Shown piece after piece: positions 21,923-47,924 of a stretch of DNA of 64,000 bases. The stretch covers positions 154,472-218,471 of the forward strand of contig NZ_BMDH01000002.1 of the NCBI RefSeq assembly GCF_014635685.1, written 5' to 3'. Below the pieces are notes generated by a model. The model searched no databases. It saw nothing but the letters and a program-made list of their open reading frames with translations, and was not told where the DNA came from. Position 1 is the first letter of the stretch, and each line of letters starts with the position of its first letter. The translations under genes were made by a program, and so were the position numbers. The DNA is from Galliscardovia ingluviei. GTDB lineage: Bacteria; Actinomycetota; Actinomycetes; Actinomycetales; Bifidobacteriaceae.

Positions 21923-23875
21923 ATGGCTTCAACACCACAAGCACAGACACAAGCACAAACGCAGGAACAAACACAAGCACAACAGCAAGCACAACAGCAA
22001 CCACACGCTGCAGATCCGCGTGTGAAAATTTTCGTTAGTGTCCATAAGCCATCGCAACTAGTAGAAGGTACTTGCTTCTACCCTGTACATGTGGGCAGTA
22101 CCCTTACTGACAAGGAACTCTCAGGAACCTTGCGCGATGATATCGGCGAGAATATTTCTGAGCGTAACCCTCGCTATTGTGAACTTACTGCACAGTACTG
22201 GGCATGGAAAAATGTAGATGCTGATTATTACGGGTTCTGTCACTATCGTCGATATTTTGATTTTTCTGGCGTCCGTCACCAAGAGAACGATTATGGCGAA
22301 ATTCTTGACACGTATATAACTGACGAGACAATCAAACGTTATGGCTTGGATGATGAGCATGTGTTGTCGAATGTCGCTGGCTGGGATGTGATTACCACAC
22401 CATATAACGATGTGCGCAAGATGGATGGTTTCTCTTCTTTGAAAGATCATTGGAATGCGGATGACCACCTGCAATTGCATGATTTGCGTCATATGTATGA
22501 TATTTTGGTCAATGCATACCCTGATTATCAGCCCGACGCGGATGCAGTATTGAATGGCACTAAGGCTGCTTTTTGCAATATGTTTATTATGCGTAAGGAG
22601 ATTTTCCACGACTACTGCCAGTGGCTTTTTCCTTTGCTTGATGCTTTTGATCAGACTGCGGATATGTCAACCGCTGATGTGCAAAGACTGCGTACCGTCG
22701 GTCATCTTTCTGAGCGACTACTCAACATCTATTTGGCACACCAACAGCGCATCGGTAAACAGTGGCGTATTAAGCAGCTTCAATGCGTACACTTCACACA
22801 TCCCGAGCCAATTGAGACGCTTAATCCACTTGATATAAATCCACGATATACCATACCGATTGTCTTAGCAGCAGATGATGCATATGTGCCTATGCTAGCC
22901 ACGACTATCCATTCTATACTGAGTAATGCAGACACAGAGTATTACTACGATTTTATCGTGTTGCATCGTAATATTTCTGTGCAAAATCAAAATACACTTT
23001 CCTCATTTGTTAGTAGAGCAAAGCATGCCTCCATCCGTTTCTATGATGTGCAACGGATAATTGAAAACTACGTGCTTGATACCAACAATCCACATATCAG
23101 CATAGAAACCTATTACCGCTTTATTATTCAAGATATTTTACCATTCTATAAAAAAGTCTTGTATTTAGACTGCGATTTGATAGTAAACGCTGATATTGCA
23201 ACGCTCTATGCTACTGATATTAAGAACTATTGTTTGGCTGCGGTAAAAGATATTGATTTTACTGGCACGCTGGCTATGAAGGATGGTAAGAGAAAACAGT
23301 ACACCGATACTGTTTTGCATATGAACAATGGGTTTAATTACTTCCAAGCTGGAGTAATGCTACTGAATCTTGACGAGCTGCGCATGTTGCATACTGTTGA
23401 AGAATGGCTTGCTATGTCTACAGATACGGCATACATTTACAACGATCAGGATATCTTAAATATGGAGTGTGAAGGAAAGGTACTCTACCTTGATGCGCGT
23501 TGGAATGTGATGCACGATTGTGCTGGTCGAGTCGATGGGGTGTTTGCGTTTGCTCCTGCTGAGGATTTCTTAGCATATCAGCAAGCACGCCGCGATCCAA
23601 GTATTGTGCATTATGCTGGTTTTGAAAAGCCTTGGAAGAATCCATGGTGTGATTTTGGTCCGTTGTACTGGCATTATGCTCAGCAGACACCGTTCTCAGT
23701 GCAACTCATCGCTATGCTGGCTGGGATACAGAAGCCTAAGCCTATTCAACATCATGATCGCGCAATTGCTGAGGATAGCCCATTGCGCAAATACGGTGAT
23801 ATTCTAGCTCCTACTGGTTCGAAACAGCGTGAGATCGCAAAGGTGATAGTGCGAAAAATGCGTGGTAGAAAATAG
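21923..23875 (+). CDS. two-domain glycosyltransferase (DUF4422 + GT8)
   Basis: The 650-residue protein starts with a Gln/Ala/Thr-rich tail (residues 1-30). Residues 33-300 form a DUF4422 domain (YCELTAQYWAWKNVDADYYGFCHYRRYF). From about 310 there is a GT8 domain (IPIVLAADDAYVPMLATTIHSIL) with the metal-binding DxD at DCD (about residue 415). GT8 enzymes transfer sugars from nucleotide donors with retention; DUF4422 is also found in predicted glycosyltransferases. It is cytoplasmic. The same two domains form the C-terminal two-thirds of the 1015-residue protein at 32912-35959, and both end in near-identical basic VRKxRGRK tails, so they are paralogues. AAGGTGG precedes the ATG. Donor and acceptor are unknown. 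Confidence 0.87.
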   Translation: MASTPQAQTQAQTQEQTQAQQQAQQQPHAADPRVKIFVSVHKPSQLVEGTCFYPVHVGSTLTDKELSGTLRDDIGENISERNPRYCELTAQYWAWKNVDADYYGFCHYRRYFDFSGVRHQENDYGEILDTYITDETIKRYGLDDEHVLSNVAGWDVITTPYNDVRKMDGFSSLKDHWNADDHLQLHDLRHMYDILVNAYPDYQPDADAVLNGTKAAFCNMFIMRKEIFHDYCQWLFPLLDAFDQTADMSTADVQRLRTVGHLSERLLNIYLAHQQRIGKQWRIKQLQCVHFTHPEPIETLNPLDINPRYTIPIVLAADDAYVPMLATTIHSILSNADTEYYYDFIVLHRNISVQNQNTLSSFVSRAKHASIRFYDVQRIIENYVLDTNNPHISIETYYRFIIQDILPFYKKVLYLDCDLIVNADIATLYATDIKNYCLAAVKDIDFTGTLAMKDGKRKQYTDTVLHMNNGFNYFQAGVMLLNLDELRMLHTVEEWLAMSTDTAYIYNDQDILNMECEGKVLYLDARWNVMHDCAGRVDGVFAFAPAEDFLAYQQARRDPSIVHYAGFEKPWKNPWCDFGPLYWHYAQQTPFSVQLIAMLAGIQKPKPIQHHDRAIAEDSPLRKYGDILAPTGSKQREIAKVIVRKMRGRK

Positions 23876-27696: not shown

Positions 27697-28686
27697 TTAG
27701 CCTAGCGCTGGCATGGGCTTCCAGTTAGGATCGTGCATAAGTGCATGAGAATCTTTCCAACCGCGATATATTTGCTTGATGCCAGTGCGCAAATTTTTGC
27801 GATCTACAGCTACTAAGCGAATGACTTCTTTTGCTGCTGTGGCAGCAGTGCCGAGGGCAAAAATTACTGGATTGTAGTCACCATATAGTTTGAAATACTG
27901 CGCCATATACCCACGATTGCGCATAATATGATAGCGGTTCATATCTGACGTAGAGTTCAGCTGGCGAAGTCCTGCAATATCCCAATTACCGATTTCACGA
28001 GTACGGCGAAGAATACGATCTTGAATCACAATTGGCTTAGTAACTTTTGAAGCACGGTAGCCATACATGGTGTCATCCCAGTAGATAAAGAATCGTGGGT
28101 CTGGGAAGCCAATCTGGTCTACAATATTGCGCTTGAACAGCCCGCCTTCAAAGCATAACGTATTCATTGGACGATAGCCACGAGCGTCAAATGCTGCTGG
28201 AGCAATAGGGTTTGGAATGCCGAGCGGGACAAGGAATTGGTACTGCCAGTAGAATGGGCCGCCATCATAGTCGAAGCGTGAGCCTTGAATCACCTCGTAC
28301 TTCTTGGTCCAAGGAGCTAGTCGGTCTATGCTTTCAGGCAGGACTGCAACATCGTCGTCCATAACCCAGAACCATTGCGCACCAAGTTCATAAGCACGCT
28401 TGACTCCAGCACTAAAGCCACCTGCACCGCCAAGATTATCAGTTTGAGGAGCATAGATTACTCGAGAAGTATTGCCTTGCGCGTCAGGCTCAGTTTCGCC
28501 CCACTGCTCGTCAAGTTTCTTACCTAAAGCCTCAACCATAGTTTGGGTTTGTTCGCTGTGCTCATTGTCTACGATGATAATGCGCCATGGTGCTTGGGTA
28601 AGCTGCTCAAATGATGCAAAGAGCACTTTCAATAGTTCTTGGCGTTTAAAAGTCACTACGCAGATTGCCAACTTCTCGATATTCAT
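27697..28686 (-). CDS. GT2 glycosyltransferase, GlfT-like
   Basis: The 329-residue cytoplasmic or membrane-associated enzyme begins LAICVVTFKRQELLKVLFAS. It has the GT2 donor-binding motif WFWVMDDDVAVLP (DDD) and a later WDDTMYGYR that may hold the catalytic acid, followed by IGNWDIAGLRQ. The organisation and the adjacent UDP-galactopyranose mutase gene suggest a galactofuranosyltransferase of the GlfT type. Rhamnosyltransferases of the same family are an alternative. The ATG is immediately downstream of AGGAGT; a TTG six codons upstream was considered less likely. It follows glf by about 150 bp with a possible hairpin between. Confidence 0.87.
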   Translation of the reverse strand: MNIEKLAICVVTFKRQELLKVLFASFEQLTQAPWRIIIVDNEHSEQTQTMVEALGKKLDEQWGETEPDAQGNTSRVIYAPQTDNLGGAGGFSAGVKRAYELGAQWFWVMDDDVAVLPESIDRLAPWTKKYEVIQGSRFDYDGGPFYWQYQFLVPLGIPNPIAPAAFDARGYRPMNTLCFEGGLFKRNIVDQIGFPDPRFFIYWDDTMYGYRASKVTKPIVIQDRILRRTREIGNWDIAGLRQLNSTSDMNRYHIMRNRGYMAQYFKLYGDYNPVIFALGTAATAAKEVIRLVAVDRKNLRTGIKQIYRGWKDSHALMHDPNWKPMPALG

Positions 28687-28721
28687 ACTCCTATATTGGC
28701 ACAACCCGCGGAATAGCTACT

Positions 28722-30293: not shown

Positions 30294-31472
30294 TTAACTG
30301 GTCCTAGCAATGGTTTTATCTGTATTCTGTCCGTCATTTACCTCCTTCAACTTAAAGTCACATTGGAGTATGTTTGTCTTCCCATTGGGAATTTCAAAGG
30401 AAATACGCTCACTTTTCTGAATAATAGGCAGTAAAGAATTACGTGCCGCAGTTTCAGCAGTAAATCGATAATTGATACTTGTCGTCGCAAGTTGGTTATT
30501 TGTTGTTTGATCCACTTCTGCAAGGTTAAATTCAATTATTAACGCATCAGCAATCAGAATAGATATCCAACTGTCTTTTAGAGAAAAAACTGCATGAGCC
30601 TTGTGTACAACTTCATCACCGTGAAGAAAAACAACATCAAGACTTCGCTCCGGATGTATTAACCTACCCATTTCTGTAATACTAGAAACATCTACAGCCC
30701 CCGGAATCGCACTCAGATCAAAATCTGCAGGAATTATTGTACCAACAGGAGCGACCATTATTCTCAGCGAAGTCACTAGATCTTCTTCCGTGGCTACAAC
30801 TTGTTCTTCCCATGCAGACTTATCTATATTCAACTTGAATTGCTTATCAAGAACAGTAATCATCTTCAAAAGGTTGACGATAAGAACAGCTAATGTACTG
30901 AAGAATGCTGTACCAGCAAAATATCGATCCCTATAAGAAAGACTTAGAGCTTTAGCCTTGTTTCCTTTAGGATCGGCATGAACTAAATCTGAATACAACC
31001 AAGCTTCACCTATTAATAAATCTGATAAAGGTTCAGATTCTGGAACATTCTCTTTATCGAATCTTTGAATTGTATATGACTTCCCATGATTTTTATCTCG
31101 CAAGTTATGAAATGTTTCTTGGCAAGATTGTAAGCATTGATTTTCATCCTCATCCAACTGACGATCACCAAGCAACATTTCTATTGAACGAAATACTTTA
31201 TCAAGATAAACAGGTTCTGATTCGAGAATGCATGGTCTCGTACGAGCAGCAAGTGATTCAAAGATCTCTTGTTCAGGCATTATATACCTCATCTGAGGAG
31301 AATATCCCTCTTTGTGACGAAGGGTAAATGAAGGATTCATGTATTTCAAAACAGATTGATTCTGGACTAATGAATGAGCCTCAACACGACGTGCTCTTAT
31401 CACAAATCGGCGCAAAATATCTCGTGCCTCAGTATCATTTGTGGGACCGAGCGCCTTCTGTTGTCTCTTCAT
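30294..31472 (-). CDS. hypothetical protein, AT-rich gene
   Basis: I do not recognise this 392-residue protein. It is mostly soluble, with one hydrophobic stretch near residues 190-215 (TLAVLIVNLLKMI) and a basic N-terminus (MKRQQKAL). The second half is beta-rich in appearance and contains VVFLHGDEVVHKAHAVFSLKD. Base composition is lower in GC than that of the glf and GT genes beside it. AGGAAGAG lies upstream of the ATG at 31472, which is preferred over an ATG at 31493. It is separated from glf by about 250 bp and from the acyltransferase gene by a hairpin, so it may be an independently acquired gene within the polysaccharide locus. Confidence 0.7.
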   Translation of the reverse strand: MKRQQKALGPTNDTEARDILRRFVIRARRVEAHSLVQNQSVLKYMNPSFTLRHKEGYSPQMRYIMPEQEIFESLAARTRPCILESEPVYLDKVFRSIEMLLGDRQLDEDENQCLQSCQETFHNLRDKNHGKSYTIQRFDKENVPESEPLSDLLIGEAWLYSDLVHADPKGNKAKALSLSYRDRYFAGTAFFSTLAVLIVNLLKMITVLDKQFKLNIDKSAWEEQVVATEEDLVTSLRIMVAPVGTIIPADFDLSAIPGAVDVSSITEMGRLIHPERSLDVVFLHGDEVVHKAHAVFSLKDSWISILIADALIIEFNLAEVDQTTNNQLATTSINYRFTAETAARNSLLPIIQKSERISFEIPNGKTNILQCDFKLKEVNDGQNTDKTIARTS

Positions 31473-31683
31473 TGAGTTACTCTTCCTTGACATCGAGTAC
31501 TTTCTTAGTTGAGCGATTTACATTGAATTGTATTTTACCGCCAATAATCAAACATATGTTCGAATTGCTTATAGCTGAATCAGTGAAAATCTAGCCGCTA
31601 CTTAGACGCTATCCATGGAATGGCATCTTCACAAACCATCCTTAAGTAAACACCGTGTAGCAACTTATACAATTCTAGATTTT

Positions 31684-31726: not shown

Positions 31727-32836
31727 TCATTTTGCCAAGATCAACCATCTGAGTTTTTGTGATCTTGCAAGTATTGCGCAAACGAAATAGCATACAACTA
31801 TCGTTATTGCACTAAATAACACCGGTGTCCATAATCTGTTAAATGTGCTAGGAAAGTGCTTCTCTAAGGGAAGGATTATCAACATGTGCATAAGGAATAT
31901 TCCAAAAGAATATCTGGATAAGTTTGTTACTAATGAACTAAATACTCCCAACTTTACTACTCGATACAAAACTAAGAAGATGCATACAGCAACTAGCGGC
32001 AAAGTGAAGAATGAGTACCAGATTGGTCCTTCCACACCTCGACTAAATAGAAAATTCTGATATAATACAGTACCGATAAAAGCCGAAACTGCAAAGATAA
32101 CTAGTAAGATAGTAATTACTGCTTCTCTTCTACTCGAATAAGTACTTAACTTCAAAGACAAGCTCTTAGCTAGAAATCCCAACACGACATAAATACCATA
32201 TATACCACCGCTGAATGGAAAACTAACTTGTGAAATAATTTCAGTATTAAAAGAGAAAATATTTTCGTCTAGATATTGGATGGTAGGGACTATAAATACG
32301 TAGCAATAAGCTGCGGTTGTAATAATTGACAATGCCTTATTACTAACACTATGGATACCAATTGACACAAAAGGCAATAAAACATATATTCCTATAATCA
32401 TTGGTATATACCATGCCTGTGCCATATTAACTGGAGCAATCAATAACGCTCTAGCTAAATAGCCAAACACGGAGAAAGTATGTTGATAAAAGATACAGTC
32501 AAAAACTTCATATAAGAGAATCCAAAACTGCCATGCGATGATTAATGGTAACAGATTTTTACGGTAAAACTGCAAGACTCCTTTACCATTATCTCCTGAA
32601 AAATCTCTATCTAATAATAGATACCCTGTCAGCATAAGAAACAGTGGTACTCCCAATCTTCCAAAAGTGAAAAAAGAAATCTCAATTAATCGGTGTAACA
32701 GCGGCATGTTATTTAGATAACTTGAGTTATAGTGTGTCGAATATTCCGTAGCATGATTAAACACCACACAAATAATCGCAAAACTACGTATCACATCAAG
32801 TTGGAATATTCGTTTCACGCTCGTCATAATAACCAC
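31727..32836 (-). CDS. acyltransferase 3 family membrane protein
   Basis: The 369-residue protein has about ten membrane segments. The acyltransferase-3 pattern is present at the N-terminus: QLDVIRSFAIICVVFNHA, then SFFTFGRLGVPLFLMLTGYLLL. Members such as OafA and WecH transfer acetyl or other acyl groups to exported sugars. Here it probably decorates the polysaccharide made by the cluster. GTG at 32836 has AGGG five bases upstream; an ATG at 32827 is the alternative. It lies 75 bp after the large glycosyltransferase gene and is probably the last gene of the wzm-wzt operon. AT-rich. Confidence 0.88.
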   Translation of the reverse strand: MVIMTSVKRIFQLDVIRSFAIICVVFNHATEYSTHYNSSYLNNMPLLHRLIEISFFTFGRLGVPLFLMLTGYLLLDRDFSGDNGKGVLQFYRKNLLPLIIAWQFWILLYEVFDCIFYQHTFSVFGYLARALLIAPVNMAQAWYIPMIIGIYVLLPFVSIGIHSVSNKALSIITTAAYCYVFIVPTIQYLDENIFSFNTEIISQVSFPFSGGIYGIYVVLGFLAKSLSLKLSTYSSRREAVITILLVIFAVSAFIGTVLYQNFLFSRGVEGPIWYSFFTLPLVAVCIFLVLYRVVKLGVFSSLVTNLSRYSFGIFLMHMLIILPLEKHFPSTFNRLWTPVLFSAITIVVCYFVCAILARSQKLRWLILAK

Positions 32837-32911: not shown

Positions 32912-35900
32912 TTACTTGCGACCGCGTAACTTGCGCACTATCGCTTTTGCGGCTTCTCGCTGAGGAGAACCAAGTGGCGCAATTGGATCGATAACCTTAC
33001 GTAGAGGGTTCTGCTCCCCGATAGCATTCTCATGTAGGATCTGTCGCTTGCTTGCTGGACGGAAGTTCTCATGCTCAATTTTCTTGAGTAACCGCTCATA
33101 GAATGGCGTTTGGCGAGCATAACGCCAGTAATAGCTTGCAAAATCGCAATCTGGGTTCTTCCATGGCTTCTCAAATCCAGCATAATGGATGATTAGAGGA
33201 TTTTGACGTGATGCTTGGTACGCATCAAAAGCACTATTTGGCGCATACGAGAACACGTTTGCTACTCGATTAGCACAGTCGTGCATCACGTTCCAATTCC
33301 AATCAAGATACTCTACCCTGCCTTCACAGCAGACGTTGAGTACATCTTGATCGTTGTAAATGTAATCAGGGTTAGATGCAAACTCAAGCCATTGCGTAAT
33401 GGAATACTGTTCTCGCATTGCCTTGGTATTAAGTACCAACACGCCTGCTTGGAAGTACTCATAAGGATTCTTCATGCCCAGCACTTCGCGATTGTACTCT
33501 AGGCGGTTGCCATCTTTCATATTGAGATTGCCAAGGAAGTCAATATCTCGAACCGCTGCAAGCAGGTTATCGCCAAGCTGAGTATCAAAAAGCTCAGCAA
33601 TATTGCCGTTAATGACGATGTCTGAATCAAGATACAGCACCTTGTCGTAGAAAGGCAACACTTCTTGGATGAGGAATCGATAGTAGGTTTCCACGCTAAT
33701 ATGCTCGTTATTGGTCGATAGCTCTACGCCAGAGACCAGACGATCAACATTAATGAAACGAAGTTCCATATTGTCAAACTGCTTTTTGAAAAATTCTTTC
33801 AACCGCTGCTGCTTAGCCCAAGTGATATTGCTCTGAAGCACTACGACATCATAGAAGCGTGAGGAATCAGCATTAGCCATTGCCGAGTACATTGTAGTAG
33901 CAAGTTGAGGTACGTAATTATCGTCCGCTGCAAACACTACAGGAACAATAGAAGCAGGGTTATCAACAGTCAAAAGCTCTTCTATCTGCTCTTGTGGCGC
34001 TGGCGACGTGAAATGCACGCACTGAAGCTCTTTGGTCTTCCATCCTGCGCCAATACGCTTATGATGAAGTAAATAAATATTGAGTAGTCGTTCAGCTAAA
34101 TGTCCAGGAGTGCGCAGCGCTTCCTTGCTGTACCGTGACATGTCAGTTCTGCGCTCAAATTCTTCCAGCAGTGGGAAGAGCCATTCGCAGTAGTCTTGGA
34201 AGATTTCCTTGCGCATGATGAACATATTGCAGAAGCATGACTGGTGCCCGTTTAAGAAAGCAATGGCATCCTGCTTGTATGCTGGTTGCAGCTCGCACAC
34301 AATGTCATACATACGATGCAAGTCTTCGTCAATGAGCTTTGGCGCAGCTTCCCATACTTCTTTCGGTGTGCCATGTCCCTCGATAATTTTTCGTAAATCA
34401 CCAAATCTCGTTGTGATAACGTCATACCCCTCGATGGAGTTACGTATAGTTTCATCATCAAGACCATACTTAGCGATAGCTTTCGCATCAATATAGTCAT
34501 CCATGATCTCACCGTACGCATTCTCCTTGTAGTCTGTCGAGGAGAAATTAAAGTAACGGCGATAATGGCAGAATCCATAGTAGTCTGCATCAACATTCTT
34601 CCAAGCCCAGTATTGAGTAGTCAGCTCACAGTACATAGGGTTCTTATCGGCAATGTTTTCTCCAGCATCATCTTGCAACGCCCAAGAAAGGCGCTGCGTC
34701 TTAGATCCAACTTGTACAGGCTGAAGAATACTGCCATCAGGAATATCCACTTCTTTATGCGTGGTTACAAAAATGCGGATAGGTTGGTTGGAATATGCAC
34801 TAATTTTCTCTCTTTGAATCATAGCTCTCTCTAAATCTTTACTATGTTGTATTGCCAAACTTCTATTTTCAACTGATTGACGATCAACGTACACAACTTT
34901 TGAAATATCAATTTGTTTTATTAATTCTTTATACAAATCAATTAATTGTAGATTGTCATCAATGTCATGTAACTGTTTTCCTGATGTTAACTCGTGAAAT
35001 GTCTTATATGTAGCATCTCTAAGGTAACGATACAACTCCCAGTAAATGTCACTATCCGTAAAGTGCTCCTGTGCGTATGCTATTGCTTCTTTCTTTAATG
35101 AAAGATCAACACAATCATTCCATTCATTAAGAGAGTGCTGAACAAGTTTCTTATGAATCGCATGGTACACTTCAGTTAGTTCTACAGCATCGTTATCTGT
35201 TTTATTAATAAAATCCATGCACAAGCTATCTGCCATACTATCTTGCTGACAGATATACTCGTAGTCTTTTGCCGAAAGGCTATCTATACTCGATACACCT
35301 CGATCTAAATGATAGATGTAATACTGCGAGTTAGCCAGAGCTTTATATGATTTTGCAAAATATGCTATGACGAAGAAGGTATACAAATCTTCTGAACGAA
35401 CTAAATATTGTTCGTCAATATATTCTGTAATTCCACGAATTAATGATCCTCTAAAGATTTTGTGTGCTAAATTCCAATCAAAACCATTTTGTCCAAACGC
35501 AATTCGAAGTATTTCTGGTGAGCACAGAGTGCGCGGGATAGGATTCATAAATGATTCCATTCCAGCTACTGTTTTTTCTTCCAGTGTGTCTGCTACCACT
35601 TTAATACCGAAATGAAGTATATCTACATCTGACAGATGCACCTCATTCATCAGCTTGCTTAGTACGCCTTGTGTGAACTCGTCATCGGGATCAATGAATG
35701 TGACGTACTTCCCAGTTGAAGACTCAATTCCTCTCTTCCTTGCGATAAGCGTGCCACAGTTTTGCTCTAATGCAATAACTTTGATTCGAGAGTCTCGATT
35801 AGCCATCTCATAAGCTACGTTTAATGAGTTGTCACTACTGCCGTCATCAACAATAACTATTTCAAAATCATCAAAATCTTGATCCTGAATAGACTGAACA

Positions 35901-35959
35901 CATGCAGGCAAAAAATCACGCTTGTTATATACAGGAATAATAATCGAAAGCTCAGCCAT
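32912..35959 (-). CDS. three-domain glycosyltransferase (GT2 + DUF4422 + GT8)
   Basis: The 1015-residue protein joins three glycosyltransferase-like modules. Residues 1-230 are a GT2 domain (LSIIIPVYNKRDFLPACVQSI, IVIVDDGSSDNS, DPDDEF), followed by a helical linker to about 390. A DUF4422 domain spans about 393-650 (YCELTTQYWAWKNVDADYYGFCHYRRYF), and a GT8 domain begins at about 667, with DxD at YLDSDIV (about residue 778). The last two modules match the 650-residue protein at 21923-23875. The N-terminal part of the gene is visibly more AT-rich than the rest, suggesting a fusion. The gene starts 15 bp after the Wzt-like ATPase stop. It probably adds two or more sugars per repeat; linkages are unknown. 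Confidence 0.88.
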   Translation of the reverse strand: MAELSIIIPVYNKRDFLPACVQSIQDQDFDDFEIVIVDDGSSDNSLNVAYEMANRDSRIKVIALEQNCGTLIARKRGIESSTGKYVTFIDPDDEFTQGVLSKLMNEVHLSDVDILHFGIKVVADTLEEKTVAGMESFMNPIPRTLCSPEILRIAFGQNGFDWNLAHKIFRGSLIRGITEYIDEQYLVRSEDLYTFFVIAYFAKSYKALANSQYYIYHLDRGVSSIDSLSAKDYEYICQQDSMADSLCMDFINKTDNDAVELTEVYHAIHKKLVQHSLNEWNDCVDLSLKKEAIAYAQEHFTDSDIYWELYRYLRDATYKTFHELTSGKQLHDIDDNLQLIDLYKELIKQIDISKVVYVDRQSVENRSLAIQHSKDLERAMIQREKISAYSNQPIRIFVTTHKEVDIPDGSILQPVQVGSKTQRLSWALQDDAGENIADKNPMYCELTTQYWAWKNVDADYYGFCHYRRYFNFSSTDYKENAYGEIMDDYIDAKAIAKYGLDDETIRNSIEGYDVITTRFGDLRKIIEGHGTPKEVWEAAPKLIDEDLHRMYDIVCELQPAYKQDAIAFLNGHQSCFCNMFIMRKEIFQDYCEWLFPLLEEFERRTDMSRYSKEALRTPGHLAERLLNIYLLHHKRIGAGWKTKELQCVHFTSPAPQEQIEELLTVDNPASIVPVVFAADDNYVPQLATTMYSAMANADSSRFYDVVVLQSNITWAKQQRLKEFFKKQFDNMELRFINVDRLVSGVELSTNNEHISVETYYRFLIQEVLPFYDKVLYLDSDIVINGNIAELFDTQLGDNLLAAVRDIDFLGNLNMKDGNRLEYNREVLGMKNPYEYFQAGVLVLNTKAMREQYSITQWLEFASNPDYIYNDQDVLNVCCEGRVEYLDWNWNVMHDCANRVANVFSYAPNSAFDAYQASRQNPLIIHYAGFEKPWKNPDCDFASYYWRYARQTPFYERLLKKIEHENFRPASKRQILHENAIGEQNPLRKVIDPIAPLGSPQREAAKAIVRKLRGRK

Positions 35960-35974
35960 AATGTAACCTTTTCG

Positions 35975-37243
35975 TTATACTTGCATGGTTTCTACTAAGG
36001 AAACGCTCATGGATCTATCGTTTATCAGTGCATAGTTGTTGGTATTTTTTGAATCTCTGATTGCAAAAATAAGTGAATTACTATTGTTTGTGAATGCAAT
36101 CATCTCAGTTTTCTCACTATCGGACAATGTCAACCGTCTTAGCGTGCAGAAAACTTTATATTCACCATCATTAAAAAGATGCAGTGGCATGGAGAATCGA
36201 ACAATATGGTGTCCTTGAGGTACCTTAAATGTGTCAGGGCCAGAATCGTATGGAATACCTCCACGTTTAATATCATTCAATGAAATTGCAATATACCCAT
36301 CATTATGCCCATACATATATTCAATTTCAAATATAAAGTCTGATGAAGATTGAGCTACTGTTGGAGATACAGGATTTATCCTTAAAATTGGGACTTCTTT
36401 ATTTAATCCTTCTGGATAGACGTCAAGCTTCTCAGTATTTTGGTCGGCACTATCTTTTGAGTTCTCTCGCTTTAAATTCTCGAGTGTATAACGATCGGCG
36501 ACATCGTTTTTATCACCGCTTGCGATAATCTCACCATCTTTAATTAAGATAGCTTTATTGCAATAGCGCTTTACCGCATCCATAGAATGCGTAACCAAAA
36601 TCACTGTCTTGGTAGGGTCCTTCTTTATCTCAGCAAAGAAGTTATCGCACTTACGTTGGAATGCTTCATCGCCCACTGCAAGCACTTCATCAAGTACAAG
36701 AATATCTCCCTGTGCTTTAATTGCTACTGAGAATGCTAACCTTACCTGCATGCCAGAGGAATAGTTCTTGAGTTTTTGATCCATGAACTCTTCTAGCTCG
36801 GCAAATTCTACAATGTCATCATACATGGCATCAATCTCATCACGTGAGAAACCAAGCAGCGCACCGTTGAGATAGACATTTTCTCTACCAGTAAGTTCAG
36901 GATTGAACCCAACACCAAGCTCGATAAATGGCACCAGTTTGCCATTCACCATCACGCTTCCTTTTTCAGGAACGTAAATCTGCGAAATAATTTTTAGAAG
37001 TGTGGATTTTCCAGAACCATTTCTACCTACGATTCCAAAAAAATCACCTTGATGTACTTCAAAGTTGATATCTTTGAGCACTTTTTGCTCAGTATACCCT
37101 TTAATGCCTTTAGTCCAATTCAGGAATGCCATTTTAAGACCTGTGGCTTGCTCCGTAGGAAGCCTGAATGACTTTGCTACATGGTCAATTTTAAGTACTA
37201 CTGGACGTTCAGCCTCTGCTTGCGTCATTTCGTTCGCTACCAT
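35975..37243 (-). CDS. polysaccharide ABC exporter ATPase (Wzt/TagH-like) with C-terminal domain
   Basis: The 422-residue protein has Walker A GRNGSGKST (residues 73-81), the signature YSSGMQVRL, and Walker B ILVLDEVLAVGD, as in O-antigen and teichoic-acid exporters. From about residue 270 there is a beta-rich domain (EVPILRINPVSP and IVRFSMPLHLFNDGEYKV) resembling the Wzt carbohydrate-binding domain that recognises the finished glycan terminus. Such a domain predicts export of a chain with a specific end. The start overlaps the permease stop by one base (TAATG). It works with the permease at 37243-38076. Confidence 0.93.
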   Translation of the reverse strand: MVANEMTQAEAERPVVLKIDHVAKSFRLPTEQATGLKMAFLNWTKGIKGYTEQKVLKDINFEVHQGDFFGIVGRNGSGKSTLLKIISQIYVPEKGSVMVNGKLVPFIELGVGFNPELTGRENVYLNGALLGFSRDEIDAMYDDIVEFAELEEFMDQKLKNYSSGMQVRLAFSVAIKAQGDILVLDEVLAVGDEAFQRKCDNFFAEIKKDPTKTVILVTHSMDAVKRYCNKAILIKDGEIIASGDKNDVADRYTLENLKRENSKDSADQNTEKLDVYPEGLNKEVPILRINPVSPTVAQSSSDFIFEIEYMYGHNDGYIAISLNDIKRGGIPYDSGPDTFKVPQGHHIVRFSMPLHLFNDGEYKVFCTLRRLTLSDSEKTEMIAFTNNSNSLIFAIRDSKNTNNYALINDRSMSVSLVETMQV

Positions 37244-38250: not shown

Positions 38251-40074
38251 CTAACTTTGCTTATTATTCAACAACTTATCAACGTAGAATTGACTATACA
38301 ATGAAGTTTCTTTATCTACAGTATCTTTACCATCGCGTTCAATAAGTGTTTGTTTATTGGATGCTAAATTCGTGCCCAAAGCCAATCGATTACCTTGGAT
38401 TTTCACACCCAGAGATGACAAAATAGTTGGGAAATAATCCCAAGAAGCATACTGACGATCTCTCAACTTAAAATGTCGCTCAGGAAAATCAGCATTAATA
38501 AACGCATTAAATGTAGTACGCTCATACTTCGGATCCCAATCCTTGAAGAAATTCACATCCATGGAAAGATGATCGCCAGTCACCACAATCGTAGTATCCG
38601 GACCAAATGGCTGAGCTTGAATCCATTGAATAAGGTCGACAATTTGCTTTTGCGAGTTAAAAATCACGTTAGCATACTGCTTACCAAACTTGTCTTGGGT
38701 TTCCGGTTCCACAAAACCATCAGGGAAATGTGTATCAGCATTTTCCATCATCAAGTTAAAAGGCTTACCCTCACTAGCAAGACGAGTCATTTCCTGCTTA
38801 GCATAGTCATACAACTTATTATCTTCAAAGCCCCACCACACATTATAATCCTGTGGAATCAAACCATGCTCACGCGCATATTTCACATCAAAAATAGTTT
38901 GTACGCCATGATTCTGGTAAAAAGCGTCAAGACCACCGAAATGCGCATCGGCTCCAAACATAATAGTTTGGTTGTAGCCCTCTTTGGCAAGAATATCGGT
39001 ATAACCAGTAGCCCCAGGCAAGAACCTGCCGTCAAGCCCGTAACTATTTTGAGTACCAGGAGCTTTCAAAGGAATACCAAAATTCATATTGGTCATACCA
39101 GCCACACTCCAACTCGTACCATAAATTTGATGAGGACCACCAAAAGGCTTATCAGTATGAGAGAAATGAACTCCGGTATTGGCAAGTTCCATTAAATTGG
39201 GCATTAGATTTTCATCCATATACCCACCATTTTGCTTATCTAAATATGATGTCTCCGCCGATTCAAAATAAATATGCACCAAATTGCGCTTATGCTTAGG
39301 AAAAGTAAGTTTCACACTCGTAGGATCAACATAATTATCTTGCACATACTCACTTTTTACCATATATGATTGTGCTATCTCTTTTGCGTGCAAATGCTTA
39401 TATGCATATAAACAGCCACCAATACATATAGCGAATGATAGTGGAATAACAATCATCTGGCGGATTTTGCGCGTAATCCACACTTTCTTCTCAAAACCAA
39501 AACCTAATTTAGCTGGTACAACAAGTAGATAGGTTAGGATAAATATTACGAGGAAAAGAAGAAACACTGGACGTGAATACAAATCACGCATAGAGTCTTC
39601 ATTAGCGCCGCCTACAGGAGAAGCAAAATTAAATAGAAATTGCTCAGGTGTCATTACTCCATAAAAGTCTTGGAACCACCATGATCCGATTCCTGCAAAT
39701 GCGCCAATAGCCGCTGCAATCACTGCAACTACCATAACTACAATACGCCATGGGGAAAGATGAGCATGGTCAGGTTCCAAGCGGATAAAACCAACCATTG
39801 CTGCCTTAATGGTTAGAAATAGTAATCCAATAAGGATAGCTAGTATGACGTACTTCCACCAATAAGGAGTAATATATGCACCTGGATCGACGATATAGTC
39901 TCTTGAAAATACAAAGCGCAGCACAAATAATGCAGCAAAATTCACAAGCAATATATCAGAGATGATGATACCGAGAATATGCAAAGCACCTCTTGTGCGC
40001 GAGATGAAAATATCACCGAGTGCAATTATGAGTCCGCAAAGAACCCAAATGCTCAGCATGGCGACTATTGCCAT
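38251..40074 (-). CDS. LTA-synthase/MdoB-like phosphoglycerol-type transferase
   Basis: The 607-residue protein has five N-terminal membrane segments (to about residue 240). A large extracytoplasmic sulfatase-fold domain follows, with HIYFESAETSYL, YGTSWSVAGM (likely Thr nucleophile) and VTGDHLSMD (metal ligands). Family members transfer phosphoglycerol from phosphatidylglycerol onto glycolipids, teichoic acids or glucans. In this cluster it may decorate the exported polysaccharide with glycerol phosphate; the acceptor is inferred. The ATG at 40074 has GAAAGG seven bases upstream; a GTG eight codons earlier is less likely. Confidence 0.9.
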   Translation of the reverse strand: MAIVAMLSIWVLCGLIIALGDIFISRTRGALHILGIIISDILLVNFAALFVLRFVFSRDYIVDPGAYITPYWWKYVILAILIGLLFLTIKAAMVGFIRLEPDHAHLSPWRIVVMVVAVIAAAIGAFAGIGSWWFQDFYGVMTPEQFLFNFASPVGGANEDSMRDLYSRPVFLLFLVIFILTYLLVVPAKLGFGFEKKVWITRKIRQMIVIPLSFAICIGGCLYAYKHLHAKEIAQSYMVKSEYVQDNYVDPTSVKLTFPKHKRNLVHIYFESAETSYLDKQNGGYMDENLMPNLMELANTGVHFSHTDKPFGGPHQIYGTSWSVAGMTNMNFGIPLKAPGTQNSYGLDGRFLPGATGYTDILAKEGYNQTIMFGADAHFGGLDAFYQNHGVQTIFDVKYAREHGLIPQDYNVWWGFEDNKLYDYAKQEMTRLASEGKPFNLMMENADTHFPDGFVEPETQDKFGKQYANVIFNSQKQIVDLIQWIQAQPFGPDTTIVVTGDHLSMDVNFFKDWDPKYERTTFNAFINADFPERHFKLRDRQYASWDYFPTILSSLGVKIQGNRLALGTNLASNKQTLIERDGKDTVDKETSLYSQFYVDKLLNNKQS

Positions 40075-40279
40075 TTGTTTACCTTTCTTCAATCTCACCT
40101 AATTCGTGTATCGAAGACAAAAGTCTATGACTTATATACTGTACAACTAACTGCATATAGCGTGGTATTACGTACCGCAAATTTGCTACCTAAACATTTC
40201 AGCTTTCACTTTTGATATTACTTCAAATACATGCTGTGCTCTAAACTTGTGAAAGTATATCTACTCAAAGGTACAGGGA

Positions 40280-42805
40280 ATGTTGAAGAAACGTAATAAC
40301 TATTTGTATTTGATAACTGGCACTGTTTCTGTGTTGATGCTGACTACTATTCTGTTATGCCTCCATACATATCCATTTGGCGATAAATTGTTTTTATGGG
40401 CAGATGCTGATCAAAATCTAGGCTTTTATTCTTATCTAAGAACTCTCACAGAGGGCAATAACATTTTCTACTCCTTAAATGGAGTCTTTGGCAGCAGTGA
40501 ATTTTCATCATTGGCATTCTTTGCTTTTAGTCCTTTCAATATACTTTTTATCCTTTTCCCAACACACTTTATTGCTGTAACTCATTTTGTCGCATATTCA
40601 AAAATTATCCTCAGTTCAATAACTTTTCTGTATTTCCTCAATCAGATTGAACCTAAGTACTATAGAGTAGCAAAAGTACTGTTATCCATTTCATACGCTT
40701 TTATGGGATACACCATATTCTATGGATGGCATGCCGCTTGGCTTGATGCTGTAATGGTCTTACCTCTTATTGTTGCAGGTCTTTATAAGCTCGTTTATGA
40801 AGAGGAATATCTACTCTATATTTTCTCACTTGCATATGGAATTATTGCACAGTATTATCTTGGTTTTATGCTTGGAGTTGCCTCCATTATATTTTTCTGT
40901 TTCCTCTTATTTATTCGCTTCGCTCCTCAAACAAAGACATACAAAGCTTTTTTCGTGAGATCAAAAGATACCTTATTAATGTATTGCTGTTCGACAATAA
41001 TTGCAGTTTGTATTAGTTCAATAGTACTCATACCAGCATTTCTTGGGATCCCGAATTTTAGAAAAGTCTCCCCACTTTCACAATTCACTGAGATGGGATT
41101 CCCACGATCACCATTTGATATTCTCTCCGGCATTTTCACTGGACAACAGAATACATTATGGGGTAATTCGCCAATAATATACATAGGTATTCTTCCTATA
41201 ACACTTGTTGTAATGTATTTCCTAAATACCTCTGTTACAAAGATTGAAAAGATTGGATTTGCAGTATTATTATTTGTAATATCTTTTAGTTTTCTTAATT
41301 CTTTTATCAATCTATTCTGGCATGGATTGAGTCAAAACTCATGGTTCAATTATCGCTACTCTTTCATCATGAGTTTTCTATTGCTCTATATTGCATTTGA
41401 AAGTATACGTAACCTTCACCTCGAAGAACTACCTACTCTCTTTGCAAAAGCTTTTACTTTTGTACTCATTTTCTTCCTTGCTGTGATAGCTTTTGTACCA
41501 GGAAAAAATAAAGGACTCCTATTAACTTGGGATATTATTAGTCTCGGTTTAGTCCTATTGATAGTCCTATATACTTCTAGCAAAACCGCTGAAAGTAATT
41601 CAAATATACTCGTGATTACTGTCACTGCGCAAATAATAGCCAGTCTGTTGTTAAATAGTGTTGCAATTGTTCAGCAACAAAATCAACAAACATTAACATG
41701 GTTTGAGCGGGAAAATAAGTTATTTGCTCGAATTAAAGATTATGCACAACAAGCATCTCCTCTTTATCGAGTAGAAACTGTCAATCAGACTACCCGAACT
41801 AATGCTCATTTTTACAATTATCATGGCATAACAAACTATTCGTCGGCTGAAAATAAACAGGTTGTAGAGTTCGCAAAGCAGCTCGGTATGATCAGTGACT
41901 GGATGCAAGCAGGCTATAACTCAAATATGCCATTTTCTGCAGAAAGCCTAGTCGGACTTAAATATATTCTTACTGATAACCCCCATAATAAGCCATACGA
42001 ACTTGTAAAAAATATTAATAACAAATATGCGATATATGAAAATCCATACACGTTACCAATTTTTTTCGAGCAAAACACAATAAAGGATTTTAATACAGAA
42101 AATCCTTTTGTTACTATCAATACAATCTATAATACCCTTGACAGCAATAGTGAGACTATTTTTAATAAGAATATTTATTCCATTGAACGGAGTCAGTCTT
42201 CACAAGACGGTGAGAATGTTCTTAATACATACATTGCTACAATAAAAGTTGATCATTCTGGTTCTGTCTATATGTTCATACCAAAAAATGCACACTCCAT
42301 TACTATTCAAAAGGACGATAAAGAAGAGGCACTCAGTACACATACTTTTGAAGAAACATACTATCTGGGTCAATATGATGCTGGTGAAACTATTCAAGTC
42401 TCAATAACTCTCGAAAATCAAGAATTGACAAAGGATAATTTCACAAGTTACACCGAAAATGCAGAGGCTGTGAAAAACGTTTTACGTGATGTAAAGAAAG
42501 ATGTCAAACTTGAGGAAAAATCAAGCTCAAAGTTTGATATCGAGTACACCGGTTCAAGCAAATACTTGTCCATGACTATACCATTCGATGAATCTTGGAC
42601 CATCACCGATAACGGCAAGCGGGTGCAACCTGTACAAAACTGGAATGTATTCATGTCAATTCCATTAGATCAGTCAAATAATACCCACCATATTGAGATG
42701 AAATACACCCCAAGAGGACTTAAGCTTAGCATCGTATTCTTCTCGCTTGGTATCGCTGGACTGGTAGGAATGCTAATTTATACAAGACGAACACGTAAAA
42801 AGTAA
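40280..42805 (+). CDS. YfhO-family membrane protein (GT-C-like)
   Basis: The 841-residue protein has about 12-14 membrane segments with the YfhO-type motifs FLWADADQNLGFYSYLRTL, SLNGVFGSSEF and GYTIFYGWHAAWLDA. A C-terminal extracytoplasmic beta-rich region (residues 560-800) and a last membrane anchor follow. YfhO proteins transfer sugars from lipid carriers to wall polymers such as lipoteichoic acid. The gene is markedly AT-rich and is the only rightward gene in this part of the cluster. AAAGGTACAGGGA precedes the ATG. A perfect 18-bp terminator follows. Confidence 0.86.
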   Translation: MLKKRNNYLYLITGTVSVLMLTTILLCLHTYPFGDKLFLWADADQNLGFYSYLRTLTEGNNIFYSLNGVFGSSEFSSLAFFAFSPFNILFILFPTHFIAVTHFVAYSKIILSSITFLYFLNQIEPKYYRVAKVLLSISYAFMGYTIFYGWHAAWLDAVMVLPLIVAGLYKLVYEEEYLLYIFSLAYGIIAQYYLGFMLGVASIIFFCFLLFIRFAPQTKTYKAFFVRSKDTLLMYCCSTIIAVCISSIVLIPAFLGIPNFRKVSPLSQFTEMGFPRSPFDILSGIFTGQQNTLWGNSPIIYIGILPITLVVMYFLNTSVTKIEKIGFAVLLFVISFSFLNSFINLFWHGLSQNSWFNYRYSFIMSFLLLYIAFESIRNLHLEELPTLFAKAFTFVLIFFLAVIAFVPGKNKGLLLTWDIISLGLVLLIVLYTSSKTAESNSNILVITVTAQIIASLLLNSVAIVQQQNQQTLTWFERENKLFARIKDYAQQASPLYRVETVNQTTRTNAHFYNYHGITNYSSAENKQVVEFAKQLGMISDWMQAGYNSNMPFSAESLVGLKYILTDNPHNKPYELVKNINNKYAIYENPYTLPIFFEQNTIKDFNTENPFVTINTIYNTLDSNSETIFNKNIYSIERSQSSQDGENVLNTYIATIKVDHSGSVYMFIPKNAHSITIQKDDKEEALSTHTFEETYYLGQYDAGETIQVSITLENQELTKDNFTSYTENAEAVKNVLRDVKKDVKLEEKSSSKFDIEYTGSSKYLSMTIPFDESWTITDNGKRVQPVQNWNVFMSIPLDQSNNTHHIEMKYTPRGLKLSIVFFSLGIAGLVGMLIYTRRTRKK

Positions 42806-45390: not shown

Positions 45391-46365
45391 TTAAATTTTC
45401 TTCTCTAAAATATATCGAGGGCGATCTTTCACTTCTTCATAAATTTTGCCGATATATGTACCAACAACACCTAGGGAAGTCAGCAGCATTCCACCTAAAA
45501 TCCAAATAGAGCACATGATGGAACCCCATCCAGCAACCGAGTGACCAGAGAACACAGACACTAAAGTGTAAATAAACATGACGATGCCGATAATCACAGA
45601 TGCCATGCCCATACCAGTTATGATGGATAATGGCTTCTTAGAAAATGATGTGATACCATCTAGCGCGAACGAAATCATCTTCTTCAGCGGATATTTTGAC
45701 TCACCTGCAGCGCGCGTGCCACGCTTATAAAATACTTTGGCAGTTTTAAATCCGAGTGAAGGGACAATCCCACGCAAGAAAAGGTTTACTTCGCGATATT
45801 GCGAGAGTGCATCTAATGCGCATAAACTCATTAAACGAAAATCTGCGTGATCTGGAATGGTCTCTGTACCCATCGCACTCATGAGTTTATAAAAAGCGTG
45901 CGCAGTCCCACGCTTGAATGCAGTGTCTGTTTCACGGTTATCGCGCACACCGTACACAATTTGCGCACCCTGTTTGTATTCTTCGAGCATTTTGTCTATT
46001 GCATTAGGATCGTCCTGTAAATCAGCATCCATTGATACAGCACAATCAACCTTTGCTTCACGCGCAGTCATCAACCCAGCAAATAACGCATTTTGATGCC
46101 CTTTATTATGTGCAAGTTTAACTCCGTGGAAAGTATTCGGCTCTTGCTCATGAAGTTGTTCAATAAGTCTCCATGTATTATCACGCGAGCCATCATCCAC
46201 GAACAACACGTGACTTTGTTCAGTAATAATACCCTTAGCAATAAGAGCGTTTAGTTTTTCAAGCAATACTCCAGCCGTAATTTCAAGTACCGCTTCTTCG
46301 TTATAGCACGGCACTACAATTGCCAACTTTGGTTGAGTTGACGGTTCAGCTGATAACGCGCTCAT
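45391..46365 (-). CDS. GtrB/DPM1-like polyprenyl-phosphate glycosyltransferase
   Basis: The 324-residue protein has a GT2 domain (AIVVPCYNEEAVLE, VLFVDDGSRDNTW, SMDADLQDDP) and two C-terminal membrane helices (about 235-300). It ends GTYIGKIYEEVKDRPRYILE, the layout of GtrB, CsbB and related enzymes. These load a single sugar onto undecaprenyl phosphate for use by membrane GT-C enzymes outside the cell. It may feed the YfhO-like or DUF6020/DUF6541-like proteins nearby. The ATG at 46365 has AGGAGC upstream; an in-frame ATG at 46380 is less likely. Confidence 0.93.
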   Translation of the reverse strand: MSALSAEPSTQPKLAIVVPCYNEEAVLEITAGVLLEKLNALIAKGIITEQSHVLFVDDGSRDNTWRLIEQLHEQEPNTFHGVKLAHNKGHQNALFAGLMTAREAKVDCAVSMDADLQDDPNAIDKMLEEYKQGAQIVYGVRDNRETDTAFKRGTAHAFYKLMSAMGTETIPDHADFRLMSLCALDALSQYREVNLFLRGIVPSLGFKTAKVFYKRGTRAAGESKYPLKKMISFALDGITSFSKKPLSIITGMGMASVIIGIVMFIYTLVSVFSGHSVAGWGSIMCSIWILGGMLLTSLGVVGTYIGKIYEEVKDRPRYILEKKI

Positions 46366-46514
46366 AGATCTGCTCCTCATTACTTATACCCAACTCTTAT
46401 TTATACCAGCTTTGTGTGATATTTCTTTATCTACAAGCTGGTTTCACATCAGTTTTTCGCAAATTCAACATGCTCGAGACACAAGTACAGAAGCATGAAA
46501 TACAGACATCTATC

Positions 46515-46795: not shown

Positions 46796-47359
46796 CTACG
46801 CTTCCCATCGCACTTTCAGCGGTAAATATATCTCTCGAGCAAAATTTGGCAGACCACTCCTCTGCAGTACAGCACATAATTCTTCAGGCTGTTGCGGATA
46901 CTTCTTATAGCCTAATAATGCTTCGAAACAGATATTTATCACTACGCTCGGCTCTAGATCTAGAGTATCACACAAGAAATTATCAGGAGTTACTACCTCG
47001 ATATTCAGCTTTTCTGTGCTCTCAAGAGGGAAATCTTTAACATTAAAAGTAACAATGGTGTTAGCAGGTGAATGACTTGCTGCAGCAAGCACATGCTTGT
47101 CTTCATCGCTACACTCCATAGTTTCAATTAGATTTTCATAATCAGAAACCAATGAAGCTGGAAAGAATTCACGCATAACATTCACTCGTTTTCTAGCTTT
47201 TTCATCGCCAATCTTATCTGATAGCACTCGTTCTAATTCAAGCAACACATCTTCAGACCAGAAAGGTACGAAAATCTTTCGCTCAGCACAACGAAGTAGT
47301 ATGTCACAAACAACTTCTCCATAGAGAGTGCATGTATCCAAAAACACTGAAAACGCCAT
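46796..47359 (-). CDS. PIN-domain ribonuclease toxin
   Basis: The 187-residue protein has a PIN (PIN_3-like) fold with acidic residues in the expected places: Asp8 in VFLDTCTLYG, Glu41 in VLLELERVL, Asp85/Asp87 in CSDEDKHVLAAA, and Asp109 in FNVKDF. PIN toxins are Mg-dependent RNases that cut tRNA, rRNA or mRNA when freed from an antitoxin. The C-terminus extends about 60 residues past the PIN core and is unassigned. It starts 2 bp after the upstream HTH gene, the arrangement of an antitoxin-toxin operon. The pair is flanked by nearly identical 155-bp elements. Confidence 0.88.
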   Translation of the reverse strand: MAFSVFLDTCTLYGEVVCDILLRCAERKIFVPFWSEDVLLELERVLSDKIGDEKARKRVNVMREFFPASLVSDYENLIETMECSDEDKHVLAAASHSPANTIVTFNVKDFPLESTEKLNIEVVTPDNFLCDTLDLEPSVVINICFEALLGYKKYPQQPEELCAVLQRSGLPNFAREIYLPLKVRWEA

Positions 47360-47361
47360 AC

Positions 47362-47832
47362 TTAACCCCTGATCAGCGGGTTATCAACTGTATCTAACGG
47401 ATTCGTATTAGCTGATAAATCAGACATAGCGAGCATAAAATTATTATGTTGCTTCGCGCTATATGTTTCTACATCTTTCAAATACACTCTACGATGCCGA
47501 CCCACTTTAACAAACGGAATCTCGTTTTCTTCAAGTAACTTTACAAAAGTCGGTCGCGAAATCCCCAGCAAATCCGCAGCTTGTTGTGTAGTTAACTGCG
47601 TTTCTGACGACGATAAAAAGACAGCTTTCCCCTGACGAAGCCTCCGTGCAGCTTCTACTAGCAATTCTGCAAGCTCCTTTGGGAGGATAATAGAATCTTT
47701 CCCAGGAATATTTATCTCAGCATACGCAGCATCATTCTCAGTAAGCAGATTAACAATATCTTCAAACTGACTTCTATCACTATTATTCGGATAGCGGGTA
47801 ATAACATCCCTATCTAATACTTGTGTTCCCAT
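47362..47832 (-). CDS. HTH (excisionase-type) antitoxin partner of the PIN toxin
   Basis: The 156-residue protein has an excisionase/MerR-like helix-turn-helix at about residues 80-125: TTQQAADLLGISRPTFVKLL, then IPFVKVGRHRRVYLKDVE. Such proteins pair with PIN_3 toxins and probably repress their own operon while neutralising the toxin. The N-terminal 70 residues may hold the dimer or toxin-binding part. The ATG at 47832 has a strong GGAGGT site; an earlier start at 47883 has none. It is the first gene of the leftward two-gene operon. Confidence 0.87.
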   Translation of the reverse strand: MGTQVLDRDVITRYPNNSDRSQFEDIVNLLTENDAAYAEINIPGKDSIILPKELAELLVEAARRLRQGKAVFLSSSETQLTTQQAADLLGISRPTFVKLLEENEIPFVKVGRHRRVYLKDVETYSAKQHNNFMLAMSDLSANTNPLDTVDNPLIRG

Positions 47833-47924
47833 CGATTTTACCTCCACACTATTTACTCTATTCGAAATATTCGAAAATTGCAATCCCCTGCATATTTAAC
47901 TTCGGAATATTACCTACATGAATC

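Follow-up and report, generated by a model that had tools for sequence, protein, structure and literature searches.

The closest described counterpart of the system analyzed here is WbbM, the bifunctional O-antigen polymerase of Klebsiella pneumoniae O2a, in which a glycosyltransferase (GT) module of family GT111 is followed by one of family GT8. The structure of WbbM was reportedly presented by Clarke in 2020. Its gene neighbourhood includes an ATP-binding cassette (ABC) transporter and a mutase for UDP-galactopyranose (UDP-Galp; UDP, uridine diphosphate). Passages of PMC11231755 attribute the O2a and O1 regions of Klebsiella to WbbM and WbbY, give the polymerase WbdA one GT module per linkage, and describe the Klebsiella O1/O2 transporter as being without a carbohydrate-binding module. 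In the same passages, WbbB, the polymerase-terminator of Klebsiella O12, has an extra N-terminal GT ahead of two C-terminal GTs in one chain, and the accompanying Wzt has a domain of carbohydrate-binding type. GT111 corresponds to DUF4422, a galactofuranosyltransferase family according to PMC12269835; there, PamA of Kingella kingae is a single GT111 module encoded beside a UDP-Galp mutase gene, and the Kingella galactan comes from a separate GT2 synthase. Here we analyze a 64,000 nt stretch of Galliscardovia ingluviei DNA (the window; assembly GCF_014635685.1, contig NZ_BMDH01000002.1, 154,472–218,471, forward strand) encoding a fusion of three GT modules, GT2-GT111-GT8, and a separate two-module GT111-GT8 paralogue. 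The fusion follows the plan of WbbM with a GT2 half added, and sequence comparisons indicate that this half is exchanged between species.

The original prediction, made from the window's sequence alone, placed three transferase domains in one chain, and a Pfam search recovers them: Glycos_transf_2 at residues 5–132 (E 1e-32), DUF4422 at 395–633 (4e-67), and Glyco_transf_8 at 674–935 (5e-41). The 650-residue paralogue contains only DUF4422 (35–274) and GT8 (312–573), and these two proteins account for all DUF4422 matches in the genome. As had also been predicted, the last two modules of the fusion match the paralogue, with 53% identity across 624 residues, basic ending included. A basic tail is common to the paralogue and, in varying form, to the majority of aligned rows. 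Among solved structures, WbbM (6u4b) is the best match for both proteins, over fusion residues 389–959 (E 1e-97) and paralogue residues 31–595 (E 2e-97). An AlphaFold model of the fusion, built with 59 sequences, has a mean predicted local distance difference test score (pLDDT) of 92.4 and a predicted template modelling score of 0.79. Structure prediction had been proposed as a check, and the modeled GT111-GT8 half folds like WbbM, giving a Z of 36.1 against 6u4b over 551 residues; the root-mean-square deviation (rmsd) of 8.8 suggests that the two halves may differ in relative angle. The GT8 part matches LgtC (1g9r) with a Z of 29.6. Among the 50 structure matches listed for the fusion, residues 1–318 and 668–956 are well covered, and 6u4b alone spans the GT111 module as such.

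The N-terminal half is the counterpart of a whole free-standing GT2 protein of about 400 amino acids (aa) in other species. That is, the alignment with free GT2 proteins extends from the catalytic domain through a helical ELYRxxRDxAY region. In the model, residues 1 to about 319 match GalT1, TarS, TarP, and RmlT with Z values of 24–25. The last three are wall teichoic acid GTs of GT2 fold, but identity to them is just 15–20%, and a common GT2 fold is no proof of a common role. Residues D39, D90-x-D92, D93, and D191 of the GT2 module are invariant in 44/44 aligned fusions, out of the 51 at hand with the window's included; we take Asp191 to be the catalytic position. In GT111 and GT8, for which 59 rows were aligned, the listed residues, the DxD included, are conserved in 59/59 except Ser779 and Tyr926. 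Fourteen chosen GT111 positions are invariant in all 59 rows. Domain content, fold, and residue conservation thus give the paralogue the plan of WbbM, and the fusion the same plan plus a GT2 half. The GT111-GT8 order and near full-length homology are shared with WbbM by the paralogue and by fusion residues 389–963, and the window locus also has the ABC transporter and the UDP-Galp mutase, whose gene PamA has as neighbour too. Unlike WbbM, the fusion has three GT modules, its basic tail extends past the aligned part, the host is Gram-positive, and the window's Wzt bears a C-terminal β domain. Unlike PamA, neither window protein is a single module.

Fusions were counted in 189 Bifidobacteriaceae genomes as frames of 1010–1188 aa matched over the whole query, with the architecture then checked. 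They occur in 18 of the 189; a nineteenth carrier, G117, has a cut-off fusion and was left out, and six frames of 1105–1214 aa with a GT111 match only were excluded. In the Bifidobacteriaceae loci L057–L062, frames of 1105–1214 aa, cut at the locus ends, have GT111 near the N-terminus, no GT8 match, and a GT2-like stretch further on. The two-module form occurs in 19 of the 189 genomes, as classed by frame length (641–687 or 633–666 aa) and query coverage. It is present in 15 of the 18 fusion carriers and in 4 of the 171 others (Fisher 5e-16, uncorrected for kinship). Similarly, a wzm (the permease gene of the ABC exporter) at least 70% identical to the window's is found, among the matches listed, in 18/18 fusion carriers versus 16/171 others, one match being partial (3e-16, again with kinship uncorrected); some wzm match is found in 186 of the 189 genomes. 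In the Bifidobacterium loci L108 and L119, wzm is 71% identical to the window's, and a wzt (the ATPase gene) beside it is absent from the matches listed. The second sample, the named loci, comprises the best 80 of 303 relatives, in 76 loci, which limits all counts made on it. Fusions number 50, one in each of 50 loci, and two-module proteins 40, spread over 35 loci. Thirty of the fusions are from Coriobacteriia, 18 from Actinomycetes, and one from Clostridia; one is unassigned. The two-module gene has wzm within 10 kb in 32 of 40 cases (contig ends uncorrected). In four Firmicutes loci (L118, L120, L121, and L125), wzm, wzt, GT111-GT8, and glf, the mutase gene, are consecutive. Loci L126, L129, L132, L135, and L138, from Saccharibacteria and Firmicutes, have two GT111-GT8 genes each, adjacent or a few kb apart. 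With such a distribution, the statement that the fusion is unusual in Gram-positive wall loci does not hold.

On a GT111-GT8 tree of 94 rows, the fused label changes at least seven times, against a mean of 31 for shuffled labels, and five of the changes are forced by well-supported branches. On this tree, then, the fused state is strongly clustered yet appears to have been gained or lost more than once. The window's GT111-GT8 half (hereafter, the polymerase half) falls within a Bifidobacterium set of 15 rows, 14 of them fusions (Shimodaira–Hasegawa-like approximate likelihood ratio support, 96). A 641-aa two-module protein (locus L047, genome G108) is nested in the fused Bifidobacterium set, a position suggesting that the GT2 half was probably lost there. 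Another fusion nested in Bifidobacterium, beside B. subtile, sits on a short contig binned as Eggerthellaceae (L068) that is probably mis-binned.

The clearest cases of module exchange are two species pairs, and they are independent of trees. In B. boum and B. thermophilum, the polymerase halves of the fusions are 97% identical and the GT2 halves 50%; in B. ruminantium and B. pongonis, the values are 97% and 49%. Windowed nucleotide identity in both pairs steps up at about residue 376–380, i.e., at the GT2/GT111 boundary. For B. ruminantium and B. pongonis, it rises from 0.33 to 0.81 in adjacent windows and is then 95.5% for 7.5 kb; the step is softer for B. boum and B. thermophilum, with an earlier patch of 0.71–0.80 at residues 276–325. 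The C-terminal domain of Wzt is 34% and 24% identical in the same two pairs (L065/L070 and L105/L106). Both pairs carry the commoner GT2 type, other than the window's. No near-identical partner of the window fusion was present in the sets searched, where the best polymerase half is 70–72% identical. Compared with 14 others, the window's GT2 half shows 26–37% identity and its polymerase half 55–72%.

Trees of the two halves extend this picture. Free GT2 genes with a similarity above 100 bits to the window's GT2 were included in the GT2 tree. With 66 rows, the fused GT2s of the window, B. primatium, B. rousetti, B. moraviense, and Eubacterium plexicaudatum group with 13 free GT2 genes (100/100), and the remaining 45 fused GT2s and three free ones fall apart from this group. 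When the long branches L131 and L137 are removed (64 rows), the window, B. primatium, B. rousetti, and B. moraviense form a clade (98/92), which joins 12 free GT2 genes at 100/100, and a single clade of all fused GT2s is rejected (p 4e-6). In the polymerase halves, a clade of the same four species is rejected by the approximately unbiased (AU) test on 27 of the 94 rows (p 2.3e-5), as is a grouping of B. rousetti with B. moraviense (p 9.5e-6), both p values being optimistic for a reason given below. There, B. rousetti goes with B. amazonense and B. miconis (100/99) and B. moraviense with B. vespertilionis (100/99). Together, the sequences indicate that species have exchanged the GT2 half within a fusion architecture that is itself older, and have kept the polymerase half. 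A tempting alternative was a deletion model, in which the old fused GT2 is lost and a free GT2 gene lying directly upstream thereby becomes joined to the polymerase. Of the 50 named fusions, 13 have a free GT2 gene as neighbour, and most of these free genes are similar to the fused GT2 of the window. However, the four fused GT2s of this type make up a separate clade next to the free genes, as exchange between fusions would equally well produce; for this reason, the deletion model was not adopted, though it may still apply.

Exchange on an older fusion also bears on the age of the window's protein. The original prediction took the AT-rich GT2 as a sign of a recent fusion, read here as the joining of a foreign GT2 to an ordinary two-module protein in this lineage. 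The difference in composition is real: GC content and GC content at third codon positions (GC3) are 0.36 and 0.30 in residues 1–392, 0.45 and 0.47 in GT111, and 0.44 and 0.46 in GT8, and the GC3 difference was reached by 0 of 10,000 permutations. Neighbours in the same gene run are likewise AT-rich, with GC3 of 0.32 in the acyltransferase gene, 0.34 in wzt, and 0.29 in the open reading frame (ORF) at 30294–31493. Moreover, comparing GT2 with the remainder of the protein in 50 fusions (the window's and 49 named ones; the cut-off fusion L110 was omitted) gives a lower GC3 for GT2 in 49 of them; the mean difference is 0.069, and the window's, at 0.169, is the sixth largest. The argument from AT-richness to a recent fusion therefore fails. 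Fusions in general share the low GC3 of GT2, which is most marked in several Bifidobacterium and does not point to a recent event in this genome. The proposed comparison of phylogenies did uncover a separate history for GT2, but its cause is exchange on an older fusion. Of the two findings that the original prediction had held against itself, a wide distribution of the fusion is seen, and a uniform composition is not. Although the lower GC and separate history of GT2 are as a recent fusion would have them, that hypothesis is hardly credible and was rejected on the family-wide distribution together with the named loci, which fall mostly in two classes, on the place of the window's polymerase half in a largely fused Bifidobacterium set, and on the GC3 pattern of the 50 fusions.

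The architecture, homology, conserved residues, gene neighbourhood, and module exchange described above are direct observations. We consider it probable that the fusion is a polysaccharide polymerase of WbbM type whose exchangeable N-terminal GT2 contributes a third sugar. The suggestion that a multi-module enzyme builds a repeat unit is supported to the extent that the last two modules are, by sequence and model, of WbbM type. The fusion would be a cytoplasmic polymerase, presumably membrane-associated. By analogy with WbbM, from which donor sugars and linkages are carried over, GT111 would add galactofuranose (Galf) from UDP-Galf supplied by the Glf of the locus, and GT8, alternating with it, would add Galp from UDP-Galp, on a lipid-linked acceptor. 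GT2 would add the third sugar, either branching from the backbone or as a third residue within it, and Wzm/Wzt would export the finished chain. The two-module paralogue would make plain galactan or a second block; the two window polymerases may make two blocks, as WbbM and WbbY do, with the assignment of each to a block being conjectural. Recombination at the GT2/GT111 boundary would replace the GT2 half between species, and we propose that the third sugar thereby varies on a constant galactan-making frame.

The main competitor to a third-sugar role is that GT2 terminates the chain, as in O12 WbbB, which we think unlikely. The module order is the one that passages of PMC11231755 give for WbbB, and the window's Wzt, too, has a domain of the carbohydrate-binding kind: the β domain spans about residues 285–421, is aligned in 15/15 Bifidobacterium and Arcanobacterium rows, and belongs to a Wzt model (mean pLDDT 79) that aligns over residues 15–407 with the full-length carbohydrate-binding-type Wzt of Aquifex aeolicus (7k2t; Z 29.8, rmsd 7.9). 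In both 97% pairs, GT2 and this domain differ together. However, the terminators described in those passages carry a coiled-coil ruler, and in the confident fusion model the region linking GT2 to the polymerase half lacks an extended coiled coil, its longest helix measuring 31 residues (360–390). The N-terminal module also differs from that of WbbB in kind, Pfam assigning it to Glycos_transf_2, whereas WbbB has a GT adding 3-deoxy-D-manno-octulosonic acid. After polymerase and ATPase distances have been partialled out, the GT2 and Wzt-domain distances of the 15 strains with both fusion and Wzt available show no covariation (partial r 0.08, p 0.28), and the 11 strains that remain when near-duplicates are dropped show none either (r -0.08, p 0.64). 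Within Wzt, variation across species is far greater in the C-terminal domain than in the ATPase part.

Less likely again is an adapter role, in which GT2 would place the first sugar on a lipid-linked primer for GT111-GT8 to extend. Passages of PMC11231755 have one or two adapter sugars added ahead of the polymerase in ABC-dependent O-antigen pathways, and lipid-primer candidates are encoded elsewhere in the genome, beyond the window (two PF00953 matches and one PF02397 match), with no adapter enzyme assigned in this analysis. Yet one would expect an adapter step to stay constant as polymers diverge, and of the two halves of the fusion it is GT2 that varies more; another GT2, next to glf, is also present in the locus. 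That GT2 is a non-catalytic scaffold or docking domain is very improbable: such a domain would tolerate module turnover, and nothing direct speaks for it, but its acidic residues are invariant and its model is very confident.

Several points weigh against the polymerase interpretation with a third sugar and exchange. We know of no enzyme activity or glycan structure for any such fusion. The donor specificity of GT2 cannot be read from its sequence, the nearest solved folds using differing donors. Among the 50 named fusions, only 16 are at most 10 kb from a wzm (contig ends uncorrected). The β domain of the window's Wzt, which sets it apart from the Klebsiella O1/O2 transporter, implies that export departs from the WbbM prototype and that a chain cap may exist. 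The repeated changes of fused state imply that fusion with loss or re-fusion recurs and that fusion was not one simple event. As for the trees, the 66-row GT2 tree, with the two long Firmicutes branches kept, leaves the four Bifidobacterium fused GT2s unresolved as a group; the free GT2 genes were chosen for resembling the window's GT2, a selection that biases them towards clustering with it; and the AU p values are optimistic, since the groups were named after the trees had been seen.

Table 1. Modules of the fusion, its paralogue, and genes of the surrounding glycan locus (window coordinates).
Feature	Position	Strand	Basis
Three-module gene GT2-GT111-GT8, 1015 aa	32912..35959	-	ORF, Pfam
Exchangeable N-terminal half, residues 1–385: GT2 catalytic domain and helical region	34805..35959	-	Pfam, alignment with free GT2 proteins, conserved acidic residues
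DUF4422 = GT111 module, residues 395–633, predicted UDP-Galf transferase	34061..34777	-	Pfam, WbbM 6u4b match, passages of PMC12269835
GT8 module, residues 674–935, predicted UDP-Galp transferase, DSD 778–780	33155..33940	-	Pfam, 6u4b, LgtC 1g9r
Basic C-terminal tail, residues 960–1015	32915..33082	-	Alignment with paralogue and relatives
Two-module paralogue GT111-GT8, 650 aa, plain WbbM architecture	21923..23875	+	Pfam, paralogue alignment, 6u4b match
wzm, ABC-2 permease of polysaccharide export; sole query match in genome	37243..38076	-	Pfam, genome search
wzt, ATPase with C-terminal β domain of carbohydrate-binding Wzt kind	35975..37243	-	Pfam, alignment, model
Acyltransferase family 3, possible O-acetylation	31727..32836	-	Pfam
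UDP-galactopyranose mutase (Glf), sole match in genome	28835..30064	-	TIGR00031 above cut-off
GT2 weakly similar to GlfT1	27697..28704	-	67 bits, under model cut-off of 330
Phosphoglycerol-transferase-like membrane protein, Sulfatase domain	38251..40098	-	Pfam above cut-off; NCBIfam models below
YfhO-family membrane protein, possible post-export glycosylation	40280..42805	+	Pfam
PgfS/GtrB-like polyprenyl-phosphate sugar synthase	45391..46380	-	NCBIfam, below cut-off

The genes around the fusion are collected in Table 1. The genes wzm, wzt, and the fusion gene are adjacent, with gaps of -1 and 15 nt, and the acyltransferase gene follows 75 nt on. The phosphoglycerol-transferase-like, YfhO, and PgfS-like membrane proteins could, judging from their sequences, decorate the exported chain. 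Inside the gene run, the 399-aa protein at 30294–31493 (- strand) has no Pfam match even at E 0.5, and its ORF has no tblastn match of at least 60 bits among the matches listed in the 76 named loci. Also within the glycan locus, at 42859–45231 (- strand), is a GH25 lysozyme with a ricin-type lectin and choline-binding-type repeats. A PIN-domain protein beside an HTH_17 protein (46796–47883, - strand) forms a toxin-antitoxin-like pair adjoining the locus.

Chemical descriptions of Galf-containing wall polysaccharides from bifidobacteria date from the 1990s (Tone-Shimokawa 1996 and Nagaoka 1996, titles cited in PMC12413058 and PMC7278926); strains with described Galf polysaccharides include B. 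longum subsp. infantis ATCC 15697 and B. catenulatum YIT 4016. For these polysaccharides, a concrete candidate pair of polymerases can now be named. The B. infantis wall polysaccharide that Tone-Shimokawa studied in 1996 reportedly alternates Galf and Galp like that of Klebsiella O2a. Among the titles listed in a literature search, most subscription papers lying outside it, none concerned a GT2-GT111-GT8 protein or a bifidobacterial Galf-galactan polymerase. The fusion is widespread in its lineage and is built on a known enzyme type; the new elements are the extra GT2 half, the exchange of this half where two domains meet, and the assignment of a WbbM-type system to Gram-positive gut bacteria.

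An exchangeable GT2 on a near-constant polymerase amounts to a set of natural domain-swap experiments. In each of the two species pairs, the polymerases differ almost only in the GT2 half, the end domains of Wzt differing too, so the role of the third module should be readable from a comparison of their glycans. More broadly, and tentatively, bifidobacteria and Coriobacteriia may possess a galactan system that is Gram-positive, exports through an ABC transporter, and relies on WbbM-type polymerases; bifidobacterial genomes would often have two of these, whose products could be joined in a block copolymer. In such a system, the N-terminal GT2 of one polymerase and the carbohydrate-binding end of Wzt would be interchangeable cassettes, and swaps at the module boundary may re-tailor the surface glycan between close gut species, much like a serotype switch, while the galactan frame is kept.

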